9,608 nt of DNA from Oscillospiraceae bacterium (GTDB taxonomy: Bacteria; Bacillota_A; Clostridia; Oscillospirales; WRJC01). The position numbers and the translations under genes were made by a program. The stretch spans positions 1 to 9,608 of the forward strand of contig WRJC01000086.1 of assembly GCA_009782405.1 (NCBI GenBank), written 5' to 3'. The notes under the pieces were generated by a model. It was not told the DNA's origin. It worked only from the letters and a program-made list of their open reading frames with translations, and did not search any database. Below are positions 91 through 8,925 of this stretch, piece after piece. The stretch's first letter is position 1; every line of letters starts with the position of its first letter.

Positions 91-1563
91 TTAAAATTCC
101 AGCGCGATACAGTTTGTGTACCGGGTCGGGAGCGACTCGGGCATTTTTATCGTCAAAGCCCCGAAAGACTGCGCAAATTGCAATTCGCCCCCGCCCAAAA
201 TACGGACGGATTTCACCTTTTCGGATTCGTCAAGGCTTTTTATGACCGCCACATTGTTTTCGGGCGCCTTCAGCACAAAGGCGTAAAGCGTATTGCCTTT
301 TTTCGTGAAACGATAATCCGAGCTGTTCCAGTTGGTTTTCGCTTCCGTGAAACCTTCTATCAAAACCTGCGTGTCCCCCTCGCCGAATTTGCGCCACGGG
401 CGCGTGCCGTAAACGCCTTCGCCGCATACTGCGGACCATTTGGCGAGTTCCTCGAGTATGTACACCGTTTCGTCGTCGATCGAGCCGTCGGGGCGCTGCA
501 GGATATTTAGCAGCATGGTCCCGTTTTTGCTGATGATGTCGATAAGCATTTCTATGATATGCGCCGGTTTTTTGAATTCCTGCTTCGCATCGTAGAACCA
601 GTTGCCTATGCAGGTGTCGGTTTGCCACGGCAGCGGGTTTATGCCCGGGAGCTGGCTTTTTTCTATGTCCAAAACACCAACGCTGTAAACGTTCACGTCC
701 CTGTCTTTTTGGGTGTATACGGCATGGTTTTCGCCGTTCTTTTCAATTGAGGCATTGTACAGGCTTGAAACCGCTTCAAGCCCCCATTTGTATTCAATGT
801 TGTTTATCGCCCGGCTGTCCCCCGCTCCATGCCAGTGCTCGCCGAATGGCAGCGAACCGTCCGAATACAGCAAATCGGGCGTGTACAAATCTATGAGCTC
901 TTTCATCACGGACAGCCAGTAATCCCTGAATTTCGCGTTTGAAGTGTACCAAGGCGCAGATGCCCCGGGTTCCGGGGGATGTTCGAAGTTGTCCAAATAG
1001 AAATCGCGGTAATCGGGGTCGTTTCCGTCATAAGGCACTCCCTTGTAGGCCCCGTAGCTGTCGCTTCCTTTGTTCACTCGCCACCAGGAAAAAGTGGCGC
1101 CCAAATGCTCCGTAAATCCAAATGGCATATTGTTTTTTTCGGCCGCCGCCTTCCACAGCCCTATGATGTCCTTTTTCGGCCCCACCTGCATTGAATTGAA
1201 GCGGTTCAGTTTCGAAGGGTAGTTGAAGAAATGGTCATGGTGCATCGCCTGCCCTACAAAATATCGCGCACCCGCCTTGTGGTACAGCTTCATGAGTTCG
1301 TCCGGTTCGAATTTATCCGCTTTCCACAACCCGCACAAGTCTTTGTATCCGAACTTCGACGGATGCCCGTAGTGCCTCAGATGGTACAGATATTGCGCAG
1401 ATCCCTGCATATACATCTGCCTTGCGTACCAGTCGCCGAACATGGGAACGCTCTGCGGGCCCCAATGGCTCCACATTCCGAGTTTCGCATCCAAAAACCA
1501 TTGCGGGCACTCGAACTGCTTCAGCGATTCAAACGTGGGTTCAAATTTTTTTGCGCTGTTCAT
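91..1563 (-). CDS. Alpha-L-fucosidase, glycoside hydrolase family 29
   Basis: Predicted to hydrolyse terminal alpha-L-fucose from glycans by the retaining GH29 mechanism. The 490 residues match the usual length of the (beta/alpha)8 catalytic domain plus a small C-terminal beta domain. Family hallmarks are visible: WSHWG at about 31-35, AMHHDHF at 106-112 (the usual form is KHHDGF), LLYSDG at 231-236 with Asp235 as the expected nucleophile, LLNILQRPDG at 351-360, and GVYGTRPW at 383-390. There is no signal peptide or membrane segment, so it probably acts in the cytoplasm on imported fucosylated oligosaccharides. The ATG is preceded by GGAGGAA (1571-1577) with a 9-base spacer. It lies 32 bases downstream of the dehydrogenase gene, with no terminator between, so the two are probably one operon. 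No sugar transporter is in view. The exact substrate linkage cannot be read from the sequence. Confidence 0.88.
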   Translation of the reverse strand: MNSAKKFEPTFESLKQFECPQWFLDAKLGMWSHWGPQSVPMFGDWYARQMYMQGSAQYLYHLRHYGHPSKFGYKDLCGLWKADKFEPDELMKLYHKAGARYFVGQAMHHDHFFNYPSKLNRFNSMQVGPKKDIIGLWKAAAEKNNMPFGFTEHLGATFSWWRVNKGSDSYGAYKGVPYDGNDPDYRDFYLDNFEHPPEPGASAPWYTSNAKFRDYWLSVMKELIDLYTPDLLYSDGSLPFGEHWHGAGDSRAINNIEYKWGLEAVSSLYNASIEKNGENHAVYTQKDRDVNVYSVGVLDIEKSQLPGINPLPWQTDTCIGNWFYDAKQEFKKPAHIIEMLIDIISKNGTMLLNILQRPDGSIDDETVYILEELAKWSAVCGEGVYGTRPWRKFGEGDTQVLIEGFTEAKTNWNSSDYRFTKKGNTLYAFVLKAPENNVAVIKSLDESEKVKSVRILGGGELQFAQSFGALTIKMPESLPTRYTNCIALEF

Positions 1564-1595: not shown

Positions 1596-2684
1596 TTAAT
1601 TATTGGCAAATATGACTTTTATGCTGTTTTTGCCGTCCATGCACACATCGAAGGCTTGGGCATAATCTTTCAGTTCAAAACGGTGCGTGACCAGTCCGTC
1701 CGTTTTCAATTTCCCGGAGGATATATTTTCGATTGCAGCGGGAAAACAATCCGGGCTCAGGCTGACCCCATATATGTCGAGTTCCTTGCCATCGCCCACA
1801 ACGCTCCAGTTGCAGCTGACCGGTTCGTTGAATAGGGAAAATTCGATGAAACGCCCGCCTTTGCATATGGCCTCCAACCCCTGTGTGACCGAGGCGGGAT
1901 GTCCTGTGGCCTCCATATACACGTCGCAGCCATATCCGCCCGTCATTTCCAAAATCTGCTTTGCCGCATTTGTTTTGCCGGGGTTAATCGCAACGTCCGC
2001 GCCAAAATCCAGCGCGCGCGAAAGCCTTTTGTCAAAAAGATCCAATGCCGCCAATTTTGCCGGGTTCTTTAATTTCGCCGCCGTTATCATGGCCAAACCC
2101 AAAGGCCCGCAGCCCGAAACCGCGACAAAATCCTGCGGCCGGATTTTAGCCCGCTCGACCGCATGATACGAACAGGCGTAAGGTTCGATAAGCACTGCGG
2201 CTCCAAGCGGCAAATCCTCCGGTATTTTATACACCCTCGCCGTTTTGGGCATCAGGGCGTATTCCGCAAAACCCCCGTTCAAATAGTTTTTGAAACCGAA
2301 CACGTCGTGCTTTTTGCAGAGGGAATATTGACCGTTTTTGCAATATCTGCATTCACCGCAAGGGGCAATCTGCTCCACGGCCACGCGGTCTCCAAGCCGC
2401 AAGCCTTTTGCTTCGCCCCCGCCCGGACCCATTTCCAAAATCCTCCCGATAAATTCATGGCCTCCTATCGCGGGTATTTCGACATAAGGCGGCGTCGTTT
2501 CGTTGCCCCAAAAAACTTCGCCGCCCATATACGCCTTTATGTCCCCGGCGCATATTCCGCACCCCTCGATCTTTAAAAGCAACTCCCCCTCGTTTTTGGC
2601 CCGCGGGACTCTGACCCGCTCAAAGCGCGAATCACGCGGCCCGTAGGATACCACCGCATCCATCATTTCCGGAATTTCAAACAT
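1596..2684 (-). CDS. Zinc-dependent medium-chain sugar/polyol dehydrogenase
   Basis: A 362-residue medium-chain dehydrogenase/reductase of the sorbitol/threonine dehydrogenase type. Catalytic zinc ligands are expected at Cys45 (in GCGICAGD), His76-Glu77 (GGHEF) and Glu167 (IEPYA). The structural zinc is held by Cys109, Cys112, Cys115 and Cys123 (the APCGECRYC region), all present. The Rossmann fold carries GCGPLG at 191-196, and an acidic residue after the second strand (Asp215) points to NAD rather than NADP. It should oxidise a secondary alcohol of a sugar or polyol. Pairing with a fucosidase makes fucose, or a product derived from it, a reasonable but unproven substrate. The ATG at 2684 has a strong GGAGG (2691-2695) 6 bases upstream. 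A repeat-rich regulatory region precedes it. An erythritol/threitol-type dehydrogenase is an alternative. Confidence 0.82.
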   Translation of the reverse strand: MFEIPEMMDAVVSYGPRDSRFERVRVPRAKNEGELLLKIEGCGICAGDIKAYMGGEVFWGNETTPPYVEIPAIGGHEFIGRILEMGPGGGEAKGLRLGDRVAVEQIAPCGECRYCKNGQYSLCKKHDVFGFKNYLNGGFAEYALMPKTARVYKIPEDLPLGAAVLIEPYACSYHAVERAKIRPQDFVAVSGCGPLGLAMITAAKLKNPAKLAALDLFDKRLSRALDFGADVAINPGKTNAAKQILEMTGGYGCDVYMEATGHPASVTQGLEAICKGGRFIEFSLFNEPVSCNWSVVGDGKELDIYGVSLSPDCFPAAIENISSGKLKTDGLVTHRFELKDYAQAFDVCMDGKNSIKVIFANN

Positions 2685-2700: not shown

Positions 2701-2736
2701 ATTCATATGATTCACTATCGTTCACATTTGTTCATA
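2701..2736. promoter_or_regulatory. Phased TTCA repeat array, downstream operator
   Basis: TTCA occurs at 2702, 2711, 2721 and 2731, spaced 9, 10 and 10 bases, about one helical turn each, with a related TTCT at 2741. The copies at 2721 and 2731 belong to a 17-base element CGTTCACATTTGTTCAT (2719-2735) that recurs exactly at 2786-2802. The array covers the predicted -10 and start site of the dehydrogenase operon. Such phasing suggests a regulator that binds direct half-sites on one DNA face. The factor is unknown. Confidence 0.6.
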
Positions 2737-2758
2737 TTGGTTCTTTGATTTTATGCAA
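2731..2758 (-). promoter_or_regulatory. Candidate promoter of dehydrogenase-fucosidase operon
   Basis: On the minus strand TTGCAT (plus-strand 2753-2758) and TATGAA (2731-2736) are separated by 16 bases, a plausible -35/-10 pair. It would start transcription near 2724, leaving about 40 bases of leader to the ATG at 2684. The -10 overlaps one copy of the 17-base repeat described separately, so a bound regulator would be placed to block RNA polymerase. Both boxes deviate from consensus, so this is a moderate call. Confidence 0.45.
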
Positions 2759-2766
2759 GTCTGCGC

Positions 2767-2802
2767 ATGAACTGCATGTGAACTCCGTTCACATTTGTTC
2801 AT
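2767..2802. promoter_or_regulatory. Inverted half-site operator, upstream
   Basis: Two arms face each other around a 3-base centre: ATGAAC (2767-2772), ATGTGAAC (2776-2783), centre 2784-2786, GTTCACAT (2787-2794), GTTCAT (2797-2802). The inner arms are perfectly complementary over 8 bp and the outer over 6 bp. The right arm is the second exact copy of the 17-base element found at 2719-2735, starting 67 bases away. It starts immediately after the pstB1 stop codon and lies about 10-45 bases upstream of the candidate -35. It could be a high-affinity operator working with the downstream site. As RNA it could also form a hairpin at the end of the pst transcript, but no U-run follows, so it is a poor intrinsic terminator. 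Confidence 0.6.
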
Positions 2803-2803
2803 G

Positions 2804-3565
2804 TCACCCGAAGCGCCCCGTGATATAGTCGCTTGTCCGTTTGTCCTTGGGATTGAAGAACAAATCGGAATTCGATCCTTCCTCAATTAGTTCCCCCATG
2901 AGCAAAAACGCTATCCTGTCAGAAACGCGCCCTGCCTGCTGCACGTTGTGCGGGGCGAGTACGATTGTGAACTTTTCTTTGAGTTTCATCAGCGAATCCT
3001 CAATTTTGGCGGTCGATATCGGATCGAGCCCCGAACACGGCCTGTCCAAAAGCACCACTTCGGGATCGAGCGCGAGCACCCTCGCCATGCACAAGCGCTG
3101 CTGCTGACCGCCGGATAGCGAGCTTGCGGGCACGTTCAGCCTGTCTTTGACTTCGTCCCAAATGGCGGCATCTTTTAGCGCCCTCTCGACAATATCGGCG
3201 AGCGCTTTTTTGTTTTTTGCGCCGCCCATGCGCGGGCCGTAGGCCACATTGTCAAAAATGGACATGGGCAGCGGAGTGGGTATGTCGAATACCATACCCA
3301 CCTTGCGGCGAAGTTCGGGCAAGTTCGCGTCTTTGCCGCAGACGTTTTTGCCGTCCATCAATATTTCGCCGTCCATTCGGCTTTCGGGGTTTAGGTCGCC
3401 CAAGCGGTTAAGCGCTCTCAGCAGCGTGGTAATCCCGCTGTTTGCCGGGCCAAGCATGCAAAATATTTCATTTGCGCGGATTTCCAGATTCAAATTTCGG
3501 ATTGCGCGCTTTTCCCCGTAATAGAAATTCAGATTTTTGACAATTATTTTCGCCTGCCCCGTCAT
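2804..3565 (-). CDS. pstB: PstB-like phosphate ABC ATPase with degenerate ATP site
   Basis: A 253-residue PstB homologue, about family length, ending in the typical YITGRFG. The overall pattern is PstB-like (RRKVGMVF, MSIFDNVAYGPR, QQQRLCMARVLA, VQQAGRVSD). However, key catalytic residues are replaced. Walker A reads GPANSGITT (39-47) with Ile45 in place of the ATP-binding Lys (codon ATT, 3431-3433). The Q-loop has Asp94 in place of Gln. Walker B reads LLDRP (172-176) with Arg175 in place of the catalytic Glu, and LAPHN replaces VTHN, though the H-loop His206 remains. The signature LSGGQ (150-154) is perfect. It follows pstA by 45 bases, with AAGGGG 5 bases before the ATG. The reading frame is intact, so it looks selected rather than decaying. 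Best read as the degenerate partner of a PstB heterodimer. Confidence 0.9.
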   Translation of the reverse strand: MTGQAKIIVKNLNFYYGEKRAIRNLNLEIRANEIFCMLGPANSGITTLLRALNRLGDLNPESRMDGEILMDGKNVCGKDANLPELRRKVGMVFDIPTPLPMSIFDNVAYGPRMGGAKNKKALADIVERALKDAAIWDEVKDRLNVPASSLSGGQQQRLCMARVLALDPEVVLLDRPCSGLDPISTAKIEDSLMKLKEKFTIVLAPHNVQQAGRVSDRIAFLLMGELIEEGSNSDLFFNPKDKRTSDYITGRFG

Positions 3566-3610
3566 ATTTTCCCCTTGTTAATTTAATTGGCTTGAAAATT
3601 GCAAATCGCC

Positions 3611-4441
3611 CTATTTGTTTTTTGCCATGAATCTGCCCAGCAGCATATTCGCGGCCACGTTTATGATGAAAATCAAAATGATCAGAAGCGCCGCCGTTCC
3701 GTAGGCCTTTTCCATCGAAATGCCTTCCCTGGCGAGAATATAGAAATGGACCGCCATGGTGCGCGTGGGCGAATTCAAGGAATCGGGCATGCGCAGCGCC
3801 GAACCCGCAGTCAAAACTACAGCGGCAGTTTCGGCCACGCAGCGCCCCACGCTCAAAATCACTCCGTTGGAAATTCCGCGAATCGCCGAGGGGAAAACCA
3901 CTTTGGAAATCGTCTGCCATTTGGTGGCTCCCAAGGAAAAGCTGACTTCGCGGTACAACAGCGGCACCGAGCGTATCGCTTCCTCCGCCGTGCGGATGAG
4001 CGTGGGCAAAATCATGACCGCGAGCGTCAGCCCTCCGGAAAGCGTGGACCAGCCAAGCCCCATATATTGCACGAAAAATATAAACCCGAAAAGCCCGTAC
4101 ACGATCGACGGTATGCCGGCCAACGAATTCGCGCTGAACCTGATTATTTTAGTGACGATGTTTTCTTTCGTGTATTCGGCCAAATAGAACGCCGTGCCGA
4201 TCCCAAAAGGAGCCGCGATGGCAACTGCCACGAAAGTCACGAGCAAAGTTCCCGCTATCGTGGAGGAAATGCCCCCCTCTTTTCCCATGTTTTTTGGGAT
4301 TTCCGTCAAAAACTCAAAATTTATCACCGGAAGCCCTTTTGCCAATATGTAAATTATCACAAAGGCGAGCGTTGCCAGCACGAAAATGGCCGCCGTCCAG
4401 ATTATTGCTTTCGCTATTTTTTGGCTTGTGCGCGGATTCAT
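3611..4441 (-). CDS. pstA: Phosphate ABC transporter permease PstA
   Basis: Membrane subunit of the phosphate importer. From the ATG at 4441 it has 276 residues with about six membrane helices (near 12-34, 61-89, 107-127, 135-150, 190-213, 246-268). The family segment SLAGIPSIVYGLFG lies at 106-119. The cytoplasmic EAA-type loop SLGATKWQTISKVVFPSA at 169-186 couples to the ATPases. GRCVAETAAV (199-208) carries the conserved Arg and Glu of the last core helix. The frame also opens at a TTG (4453) that overlaps the pstC stop as TTGA. The nearby GGAAGG (4455-4460) is only one base from that TTG but 13 from the ATG, so the ATG is preferred. Translation is probably coupled to pstC either way. Confidence 0.92.
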   Translation of the reverse strand: MNPRTSQKIAKAIIWTAAIFVLATLAFVIIYILAKGLPVINFEFLTEIPKNMGKEGGISSTIAGTLLVTFVAVAIAAPFGIGTAFYLAEYTKENIVTKIIRFSANSLAGIPSIVYGLFGFIFFVQYMGLGWSTLSGGLTLAVMILPTLIRTAEEAIRSVPLLYREVSFSLGATKWQTISKVVFPSAIRGISNGVILSVGRCVAETAAVVLTAGSALRMPDSLNSPTRTMAVHFYILAREGISMEKAYGTAALLIILIFIINVAANMLLGRFMAKNK

Positions 4442-4449
4442 AATTTCTG

Positions 4450-5295
4450 TCAATCCTTCCCGGCTATGTATTGGGCGGCGCTGTTTAAAATCATGATGAG
4501 AACGAATAAAACAATTCCCGTGGCAAACAAGGCTTCCCTGTGCGCACCTTCGGCGTACCCCATTTCAATCCCGATATTTGTGGTCAATGTCCTGACCGGG
4601 TCGAGGATTGACTCGGGCATGGCCACCGCATTTCCCAAAACCATTATGACCGCCATCGTTTCCCCGATTGCGCGCCCGATGCCCAAAATGACCGAAGCCA
4701 CGATTCCCGATTTTGCAGCGGGAAGCAATACCGATCGTATGGCTTGCCAGTGCGTCATCCCAAGTGCGAGCGCACCCGGTTTGTACTGCGCGGGGAGGGT
4801 GATCATCGAAACTTCGGAAATGCTGATCACCGTCGGCAGGATCATAATCGCAAGTATCACCGAACCTGCCAGTATGCTCAAACCGGGGCCGCCCAGCCGT
4901 TCGCGTATAAACGGAACGATGAATATGAGCCCCCAGAACCCGTATACCACAGACGGTATCCCGGCCAAGAGCTGTATGGCGGGCCTGAATATGTTCCTGA
5001 CGGCGGCCGGGGCGAATTCCGCCAAAAAAATGCTGCAGCAAATCCCGACAGGCACGCCGATCGCCACCGCGCCCAAAGTCACCGAAATGGAACCCACTAT
5101 CATCGGGAAAATCCCATACTTTCCCTGGCTCGGCGCCCACTCCATGCCGAAAACAAATTTAAAAAAACCCACTTTGCCGATAATGGGCGCGCCCTGCACA
5201 ACGATGAACACCGTGATCAAAACAAGCGCGGATATGGAAGAAAGGGCTAAGGCGAAAAATATGCGCCCGGACAATTTTTCCTTGAATTTTTTCAT
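4450..5295 (-). CDS. pstC: Phosphate ABC transporter permease PstC
   Basis: Second membrane subunit of the importer, 281 residues with about six helices (near 12-34, 62-92, 107-130, 138-160, 197-222, 254-275). Diagnostic segments are QLLAGIPSVVYGFWGL (108-123), the EAA-type ATPase-coupling loop ALALGMTHWQAIRSVLLPAA (175-194), and GIGRAIGETMAV (205-216) with the conserved Arg208 and Glu212. The N-terminus is short and basic (MKKFKEK), as expected for a cytoplasmic start. The ribosome binding site is weak, AAAGGAT about 13 bases before the ATG, in a 71-base gap after pstS where no hairpin is seen. Its stop overlaps the possible TTG start of pstA. Confidence 0.93.
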   Translation of the reverse strand: MKKFKEKLSGRIFFALALSSISALVLITVFIVVQGAPIIGKVGFFKFVFGMEWAPSQGKYGIFPMIVGSISVTLGAVAIGVPVGICCSIFLAEFAPAAVRNIFRPAIQLLAGIPSVVYGFWGLIFIVPFIRERLGGPGLSILAGSVILAIMILPTVISISEVSMITLPAQYKPGALALGMTHWQAIRSVLLPAAKSGIVASVILGIGRAIGETMAVIMVLGNAVAMPESILDPVRTLTTNIGIEMGYAEGAHREALFATGIVLFVLIMILNSAAQYIAGKD

Positions 5296-5366
5296 TTTTT
5301 TGATTTTTATCCTTTAAATCGAATATTCATTTAAGATAGAATTTATTTGTTTTCGCGAAGCAGCCC

Positions 5367-6236
5367 CTAATCGCTGACCACTAAACCCCTGCTTGCCAAT
5401 ATTTTTTGCCCTTCTCCGGAAAGAGTGAAATCGATGAAATGTTTTGTCAGGCCTTCGGCTTCCTTGCCTTCATCGACAACCGCAACAAACAAAAACGGCC
5501 TGAACAGCCCATAACTGCCATTTTCGATGTTTTCGAACGAAGGTGCGATCCCGCCCAAACACAGCGCCTTGACTTCTTTTTGCCCCGGTTCGGCCGCGAC
5601 CAAACCGAGGGAAATAAAGCCTATGGAATTCGGATCTTCCGCCACCAAAAGCCTGACTGCGCCGTTCGAGTCCTGCACGATGGCCTTGGGCGTTATTTGA
5701 TTTTCGCCCATGACAAGCTGCGAAAACGCATCCCGGGTGCCCGAACCTTCTTCGCGGGTTATCACGTGTATTTTGGCATCTTTGCCGCCTATTTCTTTCC
5801 AGTTGGCTATATCTGCGGAGTATACTCCCCGGATTTGCTCAAGGGATAAGTCGCAAATCGGGTTTTCGGGGTTGATGATTATTGCGAGGCCGTCTTTTGC
5901 GATTTCATAGATAAGCATTTCTTTTCCGACGCTTTCCAGTACTTCCTTTTCGGAATCTTTTATCTCGCGGGAAGACATCCCGATTTCGGCGATGCCCGAA
6001 AGCGCACTCGAAATGCCCGCCGAAGAGCCTCCACCTTGGATTTCCACATCCCTGTCGGAATACAAGGCATGGTATGCCTCTGCCAGAACCTCGGCATAAG
6101 GCTGAACCGAAGTCGAGCCGGCCGCAATGATGGAATCCGAAGCCGAACCGCACGACGGCGCAAAAACCATGCCGCCAAAAAAAAGCGATATTGAAATCAA
6201 AACGGAGGCCAATTTTTTCAAACGCAAATGGAGCAT
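5367..6236 (-). CDS. pstS: Phosphate-binding lipoprotein PstS
   Basis: Extracellular substrate-binding protein delivering phosphate to PstC/PstA. Residues 1-29 form a signal peptide: basic HLRLKK, a hydrophobic stretch from about 9-25, and a lipobox-like APSC with Cys29 as the likely lipidated residue. Phosphate-contact segments of the family are recognisable: AGSTSVQPY (39-47), GGGSSAGI (68-75), MSSREIKDSE (87-96), and TREEGSGTRDAF (160-171). At 289 residues it has the size of the compact PstS proteins common in Gram-positive bacteria. The ATG lies 3 bases after the pstB2 stop. GGGGAGG inside the end of pstB2 (CCTCC at 6249-6253) sits about 12 bases upstream, implying translational coupling to pstB2. 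Confidence 0.92.
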   Translation of the reverse strand: MLHLRLKKLASVLISISLFFGGMVFAPSCGSASDSIIAAGSTSVQPYAEVLAEAYHALYSDRDVEIQGGGSSAGISSALSGIAEIGMSSREIKDSEKEVLESVGKEMLIYEIAKDGLAIIINPENPICDLSLEQIRGVYSADIANWKEIGGKDAKIHVITREEGSGTRDAFSQLVMGENQITPKAIVQDSNGAVRLLVAEDPNSIGFISLGLVAAEPGQKEVKALCLGGIAPSFENIENGSYGLFRPFLFVAVVDEGKEAEGLTKHFIDFTLSGEGQKILASRGLVVSD

Positions 6237-6239
6237 ATA

Positions 6240-7022
6240 TCAGCCAAACCTCCCCGTGATGTAATCTTCCGTCCTTTGGTCTTTCGGATTTGAAAACATT
6301 TCTGATGTGGGCGAATACTCTATCAGCGTACCCACTTTATCGTCGTTTATCATCATAAAAGCGGACATATCCGAAACCCTTGCGGCCTGTTCCATGTTGT
6401 GCGTGACTATCACGATCGCATACTTTTTAGCCAATTCGAGCATCAAATCCTCGATTTTCATCGTCGATTCGGGATCGAGCGCGCTGCAAGATTCGTCCAT
6501 CAATATCACTTCGGGTTCGATGGCGAGAGCCCTTGCGATGCACAGGCGCTGCTGCTGGCCCGGCGACAGCGAAAAGGCCGGCTTTTTCAGCTGATCTTTC
6601 ACTTCGTCCCAAAGCGCGACTTGCGAAAGGCTCCTTTCGGCGATTGCCGAAAGTTCGCCTTTTTGGTTCACCCCGTGGCTTTTTGGGCCTATTGCGATAT
6701 TGTCGTAAATGCTCGTTGGGAATACGTTCGGCTTCTGGAAAACCATCCCGACTTTTTTTCTCAGGGCGGCGGCGTCGGAGCCCTTGCCGTAAGCAGAAAA
6801 CCCATCCAACAAAACGGTCCCCTCCACGCGCGCGCCGAAAATCAAATCGTTCATGCGGTTGAAAAGGCGAAGGAGCGACGATTTGCCGCATCCGGAAGGC
6901 CCGATGATCGCCGTGATTTTGCAATCGTAAATCTCAAGGGTGATGTCGCCCAAGGCATGGAAAGCACCGTAAAATAAATTTACGGAATTTGTCTTTATTT
7001 TCACGCGGACGTCATCGCACAT
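6240..7022 (-). CDS. pstB: Phosphate ABC ATPase PstB, active type with LSPGQ signature
   Basis: First gene of the pst operon, 260 residues. Nucleotide-site residues are intact: Walker [10 protein letters not shown] (41-49), Q-loop Gln96 in MVFQKPN, Walker B ILMDES (173-178) with the catalytic Glu177, D-loop SALDP, and H-loop His208 in VTHN. The C-terminus YITGRFG is typical. The signature motif, normally LSGGQ, reads LSPGQ at 152-156 (Pro154, codon CCG at 6561-6563). Pro in place of the first glycine should impair contact with ATP bound on the partner subunit. That partner is most simply PstB1, whose Walker motifs are themselves degenerate. Placement ahead of pstS, rather than after pstA, is unusual. 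GGAG (7028-7031) lies 5 bases before the ATG. Confidence 0.92.
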
Positions 7023-8106: not shown

Positions 8107-8925
8107 GTGCGCGGCGATCTAAAAACATATTCAAAACTATGGGGATTATCCGATTTTGAGGAAATAGATAATTATACATGGAGCTGCACTTTCAAATGTG
8201 TTTCAAATAAACATGGCTTATGCGTTTTGAAAATCGCCGAAAGCCCGATATCCGCCGAACGCGAATGCTACGTGCTCGGCGAGTATGACGGCAGGGGGTT
8301 TTGCAAATTATATGAATCCGATGTAGCCGGCGGGGTTTTCTTGGTTGAGCGCATAGTGCCCGGCACGCCGTTGGGCGATGAGCCTGACTTTGAAAAACAG
8401 ATCGATATGCTTTGCGAATTTTGGGATGGTTTTCACATCGAGCCCGGCGATAAGACTAATTACGCCTCATATATGACTTGGGTCAATGACATAACCGGGT
8501 ATATGGGTACGCGCAAAGATTGCGGGGAACTATATATCCAAATGGTCAAAGCGCAAAAAATCTGCGCCCGCCTGTATGAAAAATATCCAAAAGAAGTATG
8601 TCTGCATAATGATTTGGGCCCCGGGTCCAATAATCTGCTTTTTGATGGCAACCGAGGATGTTATCGCGCCATAGACCCGAGGGAACCGGTCGTCGGGCCC
8701 GCTTTATTTGATTTTGTGTTCGGCATTGGGTATGGAGATGTAAAAACAGACTTGCATATAACCGGCATAATATCGAAAAAGCTGGATATTCCAAAACGGG
8801 ATTTATGGCGCGCGATATATGTTTCCATATGCAGGGAGATATGCAAACAGGTGAAGTACGGCGGCGAGCCAAATATCGATTTAATATTGCATACAGAAAA
8901 GTTGATGGACGAAATATCGCGATAA
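8107..8925 (+). CDS. Aminoglycoside/hydroxyurea phosphotransferase-like kinase
   Basis: A small-molecule kinase of the APH fold, most like the APH(6)/hydroxyurea kinase family. From the GTG at 8107 it has 272 residues. Visible motifs are VLKI (40-43, ATP lysine Lys42), downstream Glu51/Glu53, DGRGFCKLYESD (61-72), FLVERIVPGTPLG (78-90), the catalytic loop LHNDLGPGSNN (166-176) with Asp169, and AIDP (188-191) with the metal-binding Asp190. The loop is one residue longer than the usual HGDLHPGN. It may phosphorylate an aminoglycoside or another metabolite, and resistance is not established. The frame is open without a stop from 8038, and the extra residues read like the family's N-terminus (IVANFGLGFYEKVRGDL). 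The true start is therefore probably upstream at ATA 8050 or 8056. It follows the isomerase gene and is probably cotranscribed. Confidence 0.7.
   Translation: MRGDLKTYSKLWGLSDFEEIDNYTWSCTFKCVSNKHGLCVLKIAESPISAERECYVLGEYDGRGFCKLYESDVAGGVFLVERIVPGTPLGDEPDFEKQIDMLCEFWDGFHIEPGDKTNYASYMTWVNDITGYMGTRKDCGELYIQMVKAQKICARLYEKYPKEVCLHNDLGPGSNNLLFDGNRGCYRAIDPREPVVGPALFDFVFGIGYGDVKTDLHITGIISKKLDIPKRDLWRAIYVSICREICKQVKYGGEPNIDLILHTEKLMDEISR

Follow-up and report, generated by a model that had tools for sequence, protein, structure and literature searches.

The textbook system for high-affinity phosphate import is Pst, which also senses nutrients through PhoU and is described with a homodimer of its ATPase PstB. 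The Escherichia coli PstB has been modelled in this form (PMC5775613), and the E. coli PstSCAB structures 9k3x and 9k3s hold two copies of one PstB, with four chains of one sequence in the two entries. Unlike these, the pst operon reported here encodes two PstB paralogues, PstB1 and PstB2, whose motifs are degenerate in a complementary manner. It lies in a stretch of 9,608 nucleotides from an Oscillospiraceae bacterium (contig WRJC01000086.1), which we call the window. Judging from the protein sequences, this operon very probably encodes an importer with an obligate PstB1-PstB2 heterodimer and one hydrolytic site.

Tandem pstB genes as such are already known. A 2025 study on Enterococcus faecalis, which states that no prior work had been published on the relative contributions of tandem PstB paralogues, reports that PstB2 is required and PstB1 accessory, the motifs being canonical in both (PMC12096839). 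The likeness to the window lies in two pstB genes per Pst with non-equivalent roles, and the difference in the canonical state of both E. faecalis proteins, which the window pair does not share (PMC12096839). Tandem pairs in loci of Ammoniphilus (L033) and Lederbergia (L038) also consist of two canonical copies, unlike the window. For Bacillus subtilis, one paper gives PstBA and PstBB as nucleotide-binding domains NBD1 and NBD2 of one model (Table 1 of PMC11466899), and the passages of that paper on the two proteins make no degenerate-site claim for Pst. No earlier report of complementary PstB degeneration was found in the open-licence literature that we searched.

In the geometry of ATP-binding cassette (ABC) transporters, a site is composed of Walker A/B, Q-loop and H-loop of one NBD and the signature of its partner (PMC7756269). 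CFTR, MRP1, TAP and TM287/288 resemble the window in having one consensus and one degenerate composite site, and a changed NBD2 signature is reported for all degenerate human sites; they differ in being exporters, and in that their second-commonest change is the mild Glu to Asp (PMC7756269). A similar breadth of change is found in Pdr5, where Walker A Lys, Walker B Glu and H-loop His are altered in one NBD and the signature of the other reads LNVEQ (PMC7756269, PMC6533308). Comparable to this split are the Lys, Gln and Glu losses with LSPGQ in the window and the LSLEQ of a milder flavour, called type A below. As a member of the fungal PDR subfamily, Pdr5 differs from the window system in being an exporter with NBDs and transmembrane domains in a single chain.

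Importers with two unlike NBDs include RbsA and NupO, DppDF and OppDF, and the DppABCD system of Mycobacterium tuberculosis. These serve other substrate families, not Pst, and in RbsA and NupO the NBDs are fused. RbsA and NupO are described with one degenerate site (PMC11466899), and a paper on E. coli DppABCDF has a legend in which DppD and DppF are aligned to ATPases with consensus and degenerate sites (PMC12136057).

Complementary motifs in PstB1 and PstB2

A first-pass annotation of the window had described PstB1 as lacking the Walker A Lys, the Q-loop Gln and the Walker B Glu while keeping LSGGQ, and PstB2 as intact in these motifs with LSPGQ as its signature, and the translations confirm these residues throughout. 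In PstB2, Walker A reads GPSGCGKSS with Lys47, the Q-loop MVFQKPNV with Gln96 and the H-loop VTHNM with an intact His208 (residue numbers and signature position were counted by hand from the translation). Two further departures had gone unmentioned: the PstB1 H-loop, APHNV, retains His206 and has Pro205 at the usual PstB Thr position, and Glu177 in Walker B of PstB2 is followed by Ser, giving DES instead of the normal PstB DEP. As in asymmetric transporters, the Walker, Q-loop and H-loop changes fall in one NBD and the signature change in the other. Neither protein alone would yield a consensus site, which sets the pair apart from the PstB homodimer with two consensus ATP sites.

Motif conservation was counted in the best 120 of about 8000 scored homologues per protein, hence in close relatives. 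The window protein was counted once per set (it was already one row of the 120 in the PstB2 search), and P0123 was left out of the PstB2 set as an internally duplicated canonical PstB. Among these best-listed proteins, LSGGQ and an Arg at the Walker B Glu position are found in 121/121 of the PstB1 type, with Ile (103), Val (11) or Thr (7) at the Walker A Lys position and Asp (111) or Glu (10) at the Q-loop Gln position. All 119 proteins of the PstB2 type keep Lys, Gln, Glu and His, and LSGGQ occurs in none of them (0/119), their signatures comprising 23 variants of which LSPGQ is the commonest (60). Source names, available for a minority of the rows, include Oscillospiraceae, Clostridiales, Treponema, Negativicutes and Oxobacter pfennigii. 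This motif split is far beyond chance, and the fear that the substitutions might not be conserved in homologous operons was not borne out. In both proteins the half predicted to form the active site is fixed, and the PstB2 signature is loose, as expected from a heterodimer with one consensus site and not from a PstB2 homodimer. Searches of named plasmid records for PstB1 carriers gave 137 matches per search, all below 60% identity, as judged by identity alone.

The same division appears in a census of 362 distinct PstB open reading frames (ORFs), which combines pattern-scan and profile-fetched loci and tells ORFs apart by the last 240 residues. Degraded Lys, Gln, Glu or His positions were seen in 126 ORFs, every one with an intact GGQ, and a degraded signature in 121, every one with all four residues intact; 114 are fully intact, including at least one (L094) that resembles another ABC ATPase. 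Only one ORF is mixed, beginning like PstB2 (Lys, Gln, LSPGQ) and ending like PstB1 (Arg at the Glu position, APHNV). It lies on a 3.66-kb contig of genome G028 (L107 1501-2322, the same as L132 2217-3038, both minus strand) and may be either a recombinant or a misassembly.

One protein record, P0242, is a natural PstB1-PstB2 fusion. Aligning P0242 to the two PstB types placed the rows on one half of the protein, and this alignment was not used. Two other fusion candidates, P0243 and P0244, have canonical halves on both sides and garbled junctions, and were read as frameshift or assembly joins; within the fetched loci there was no in-frame PstB1-PstB2 fusion.

Distribution and history of the asymmetric pair

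We call the milder flavour of the pair type A and the window flavour type B. Type A pairs were found in at least 5 of 80 listed named-genome loci, from Elusimicrobia, a planctomycete, Ignavibacteriae, Aminicenantes and WOR-1, the group names being taken from the titles of single loci; the scan used the patterns CSGLDP[IV]ST and GGQQQRLC, so its canonical rows are biased to an intact signature. PstB1 of type A keeps the Walker A Lys, the Walker B Glu and GGQ, with the Q-loop Gln changed to Ala (in later loci Ser, in six genomes, or Glu, in L227) and the H-loop His to Asn. The adjacent PstB2 has LSLEQ, LSAEQ, LSLEA or LTGEQ with the remaining motifs intact, and the gene order is S-C-A-B1-B2.

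In the Elusimicrobia phylum, PstB1 was above the cut-off in 76 of 247 sampled genomes, and all 76 loci were read. PstB2 lies downstream on the same strand in 56 of them, and elsewhere in the genome in 15 of the other 20, three times on the same contig at a distance of about 1.3, 3 and 15 kb. The Aminicenantes are part of a larger phylum, in which PstB1 was detected in 26 of 396 genomes and was paired in all 26; in the planctomycete phylum it was detected in 8 of 392 and paired in seven. Together with the Ignavibacteriae and WOR-1 genomes, both partners are present in 106 of 112 type A genomes. These prevalence counts vary with the E-value cut-offs chosen and should be read as lower bounds: in G1260 a pair is present that missed the Elusimicrobia-phylum cut-off, and the pair is likewise present below the cut-off in G514, G527, G564, G622, G630, G653, G673 and G716 of the 396 genomes.

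A reciprocal search with the PstB2 profile matched 177 of the Aminicenantes-phylum genomes, and 30 loci and 20 further regions were read. The 30 best loci all have a degenerate signature, 29 with PstB1 adjacent and the remaining one beginning at a contig end. Nine of the 20 further regions have a degenerate signature (four of these genomes overlap with the 30 best loci) and eight of the nine are paired, the ninth being the same contig-end locus; the other 11 hold a canonical PstB with no PstB1 within the region. Type B was found in 4 of 398 sampled genomes of the phylum of G029, where five other profile matches are canonical. The window's gene order recurs in L127, L128 and L130. In G193 the contig terminates before the expected position of the partner, and in G001 the two partner genes are on separate contigs, the place after pstA where PstB1 would be expected being taken by other ORFs.

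The co-occurrence that the first-pass annotation had predicted, of Walker A, Q-loop and Walker B Glu loss in one paralogue with signature change in the other, was thus met in several phyla, mostly in linked genes, and also in the 15 genomes that keep the partner elsewhere. The window operon is better seen as belonging to a broad lineage of asymmetric Pst systems than as a special case.

A tree of 153 sequences places the PstB1 proteins of both types in one clade (support 1.0, or 0.992 after masking of the motif columns) and the PstB2 proteins of both types in another (support 0.934, or 0.897 after masking); L242, type B by its DES motif, clusters with type A. The simplest reading of this tree is a single old asymmetric pair, of which type B would be a more extreme offshoot or a sister. 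The median ratio of nonsynonymous to synonymous substitution rates (dN/dS) is 0.066 for PstB1 (323 pairs), 0.078 for PstB2 (210 pairs) and 0.061 for canonical PstB (only 9 pairs), the loci used being almost wholly type A or canonical. PstB1 and PstB2 of the milder form are under purifying selection, with dN/dS as low as in canonical PstB.

Layout of the window and its surroundings

The five pst genes form a single minus-strand array, in the order pstB2-pstS-pstC-pstA-pstB1 (Table 1), with a 3-base gap, a 71-base gap, a 4-base overlap and a 45-base gap at the successive junctions. The array is therefore likely to be one transcript. PstS, PstC and PstA, the other components of a Pst importer, are co-encoded and each scores above its NCBIfam cut-off, as does PstB2. 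PstB1 falls below the PstB equivalog cut-off, yet PstB is its best family and its predicted structure has an intact PstB fold. The first-pass annotation had located both pstB genes correctly and left their strand unstated.

Table 1. Features of the window, with positions counted from its first nucleotide
Feature	Positions	Strand	Details
pstB2	7022-6240	-	TIGR00972 PstB 363.2 bits (NCBIfam cut-off 343.2); Walker A, Q-loop, Walker B and H-loop intact, signature LSPGQ
PstB2 signature LSPGQ, residues 152-156	6555-6569	-	SLSPGQQQR; predicted to face the dead site
pstS, phosphate-binding protein	6236-5367	-	TIGR02136 237.7 bits (cut-off 206.6)
pstC, permease	5295-4450	-	TIGR02138 287.9 bits (cut-off 196.45)
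pstA, permease	4453-3611	-	TIGR00974 271.3 bits (cut-off 193.45)
pstB1, degenerate PstB with intact LSGGQ	3565-2804	-	TIGR00972 336.9 bits (slightly below cut-off 343.2)
PstB1 Ile45 replacing Walker A Lys	3431-3433	-	motif GPANSGITT
PstB1 Asp94 replacing Q-loop Gln	3284-3286	-	motif MVFDIPTP
PstB1 intact signature LSGGQ, residues 150-154	3104-3118	-	SLSGGQQQR; predicted to complete the PstB2 active site
PstB1 Arg175 replacing Walker B catalytic Glu	3041-3043	-	motif VVLLDRPCSGLDP
TTCAYA direct repeats	2711-2803		in the stretch separating pstB1 from the zinc-dependent dehydrogenase gene; 10-base spacing
Zinc-dependent dehydrogenase	1596-2684	-	downstream of the pst operon
alpha-L-fucosidase	91-1563	-	PF01120; downstream of the pst operon
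APH_6_hur-family kinase match	8107-8925	+	score equal to the Pfam cut-off (27 bits)

The TTCAYA repeats, with 3 matches at one mismatch or fewer against 0.14 expected for a pattern devised after viewing the sequence, are possibly an operator. There is no phoU among the scanned ORFs of the window. In four other loci phoU stands beside the pst genes (L127 4486-5127, L128 5787-6434, L024 9657-10322 and L005 9611-10291). In one WOR-1 genome, the asymmetric pst operon has immediately upstream of it another set, pstC-pstA-pstB, whose PstB is canonical (L028 2162-9487).

Proposed dimer and its alternatives

In the dimer that we propose, the two proteins would meet head to tail, so that Walker A, Q-loop, Walker B and H-loop of PstB2 and the LSGGQ of PstB1 would form the hydrolytic site, and the ruined Walker A, Q-loop and Walker B of PstB1 would lie opposite the altered signature of PstB2 as a dead site. 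Given ABC site geometry, the observed split between the two proteins therefore predicts one consensus and one dead site, the former available only in the heterodimer and in neither homodimer. The first-pass annotation had arrived at such a heterodimeric, single-active-site importer. Its sequence basis holds, and the pairing, the low dN/dS and one fusion speak for it; the heterodimer, the single active site and transport itself are what we infer from them.

The two flavours might treat the weaker site differently. In ABCC1 and ABCC7, data are reported to suggest that ATP remains in the degenerate site over many cycles (PMC7756269), and the type A weak site, with Lys and Glu kept, may hold ATP without hydrolysing it. 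The type B pattern, with the Lys lost, an acid at the Q-loop and an Arg at the Walker B Glu position, suggests a nucleotide-free, salt-bridged joint. The acidic Q-loop residue (Asp or Glu in 121/121 of the best-listed PstB1 proteins) and the Arg, equally constant, would form a hinge made of protein only. We offer as a speculation, one that we think could readily prove wrong, the full version of this idea: a lineage spanning several phyla would have given up one ATPase site, and in type B an Asp/Glu-Arg salt-bridged hinge would replace Mg-ATP in a nucleotide-free dead site, leaving a pump that stays closed on one side and spends one ATP per phosphate.

Several observations weigh against an obligate heterodimer. 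In six of the 112 type A genomes no partner was detected. In the Elusimicrobia phylum, G1350, G1378, G1392, G1405 and G1419 show no degenerate-signature partner at threshold; at that threshold G1350 and G1392 yielded just a canonical PstB beside PstB1, and the other three no second PstB. For the eighth planctomycete-phylum PstB1, 457 bases from a contig end, a search of the rest of the genome likewise gave no partner. A canonical PstB is also encoded in G001 and G029, so that another partner is conceivable there. LSPGQ keeps the Ser, the second Gly and the Gln, and the PstB2 signature is therefore perhaps not fully dead. In E. faecalis, excess PstB2 is reported to replace PstB1 (PMC12096839), hence tandem pstB genes need not mean obligate heterodimers. 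The co-variation of PstB1 and PstB2 distances over 104 linked pairs (r 0.863, against a maximum of 0.085 in 500 permutations) speaks for the pair, yet linked inheritance alone would produce it as well. The fusion P0242 is a single record on one contig, and its model predicts the domains well and leaves their arrangement unsettled (pTM, the predicted template modelling score, 0.65; 8wd9_D aligned over 452 residues at 8.8 Å).

Set against these points, the alternatives that we considered fare worse. PstB2 might work as a homodimer, with PstB1 as an accessory or regulatory subunit outside the ATP sites, for example in PhoU or Pho docking. An interaction of PhoU with PstB has been reported (PMC5775613), phoU adjoins the pst genes in the four loci given above, and E. 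faecalis, with its required PstB2 and accessory PstB1, provides a precedent for such a division of labour (PMC12096839). The E. faecalis proteins are reported to have all motifs intact, and for this reason the precedent is not transferable (PMC12096839); moreover, a PstB2 homodimer would bring together two altered signatures, LSGGQ being absent from all 119 best-listed PstB2 proteins, and the LSGGQ kept in every one of the 121 PstB1 proteins would be needless in a non-catalytic accessory. We therefore find this division of roles unlikely. Pairing of PstB1 or PstB2 with a canonical PstB encoded elsewhere would account for the further canonical copies in G001 and G029 and for G1350 and G1392, but the partners share an operon or, when apart, are both kept (15 of 20 genomes, and also G001), and nature has fused them in P0242, which makes this pairing more improbable still. 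Least credible of all is that PstB1 is a decaying duplicate and the PstB2 signature change unrelated drift. Three lost catalytic residues and a score just below the PstB equivalog cut-off would fit decay; the identical substitution pattern in 121/121 best-listed proteins, the low dN/dS of the PstB1 clade (0.066, measured on the milder flavour) and the intact predicted fold contradict it, and the decay that the first-pass annotation had named as a possible refutation was accordingly not seen.

If PstB1 and PstB2 do form one dimer, the pair would be the importer counterpart of the asymmetry known from CFTR and Pdr5. In the source names seen, both kinds of protein are at present called simply phosphate ABC transporter ATP-binding protein or PstB. 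A Pst branch with one consensus site, spread over several phyla, would offer separately encoded partners with which the role of a degenerate site can be probed in an importer, and the natural series from fully intact PstB, through loss of the Q-loop Gln and H-loop His, to loss of Lys, Gln and Glu is graded such that it could be tested step by step. Asymmetry also bears on the ATP cost per phosphate and on the side of the transporter that PhoU reads. Were the dead site of type B indeed nucleotide-free, one ATP would be spent per phosphate by a pump closed on one side, and that permanently closed side would also fix the face available for PhoU signalling.

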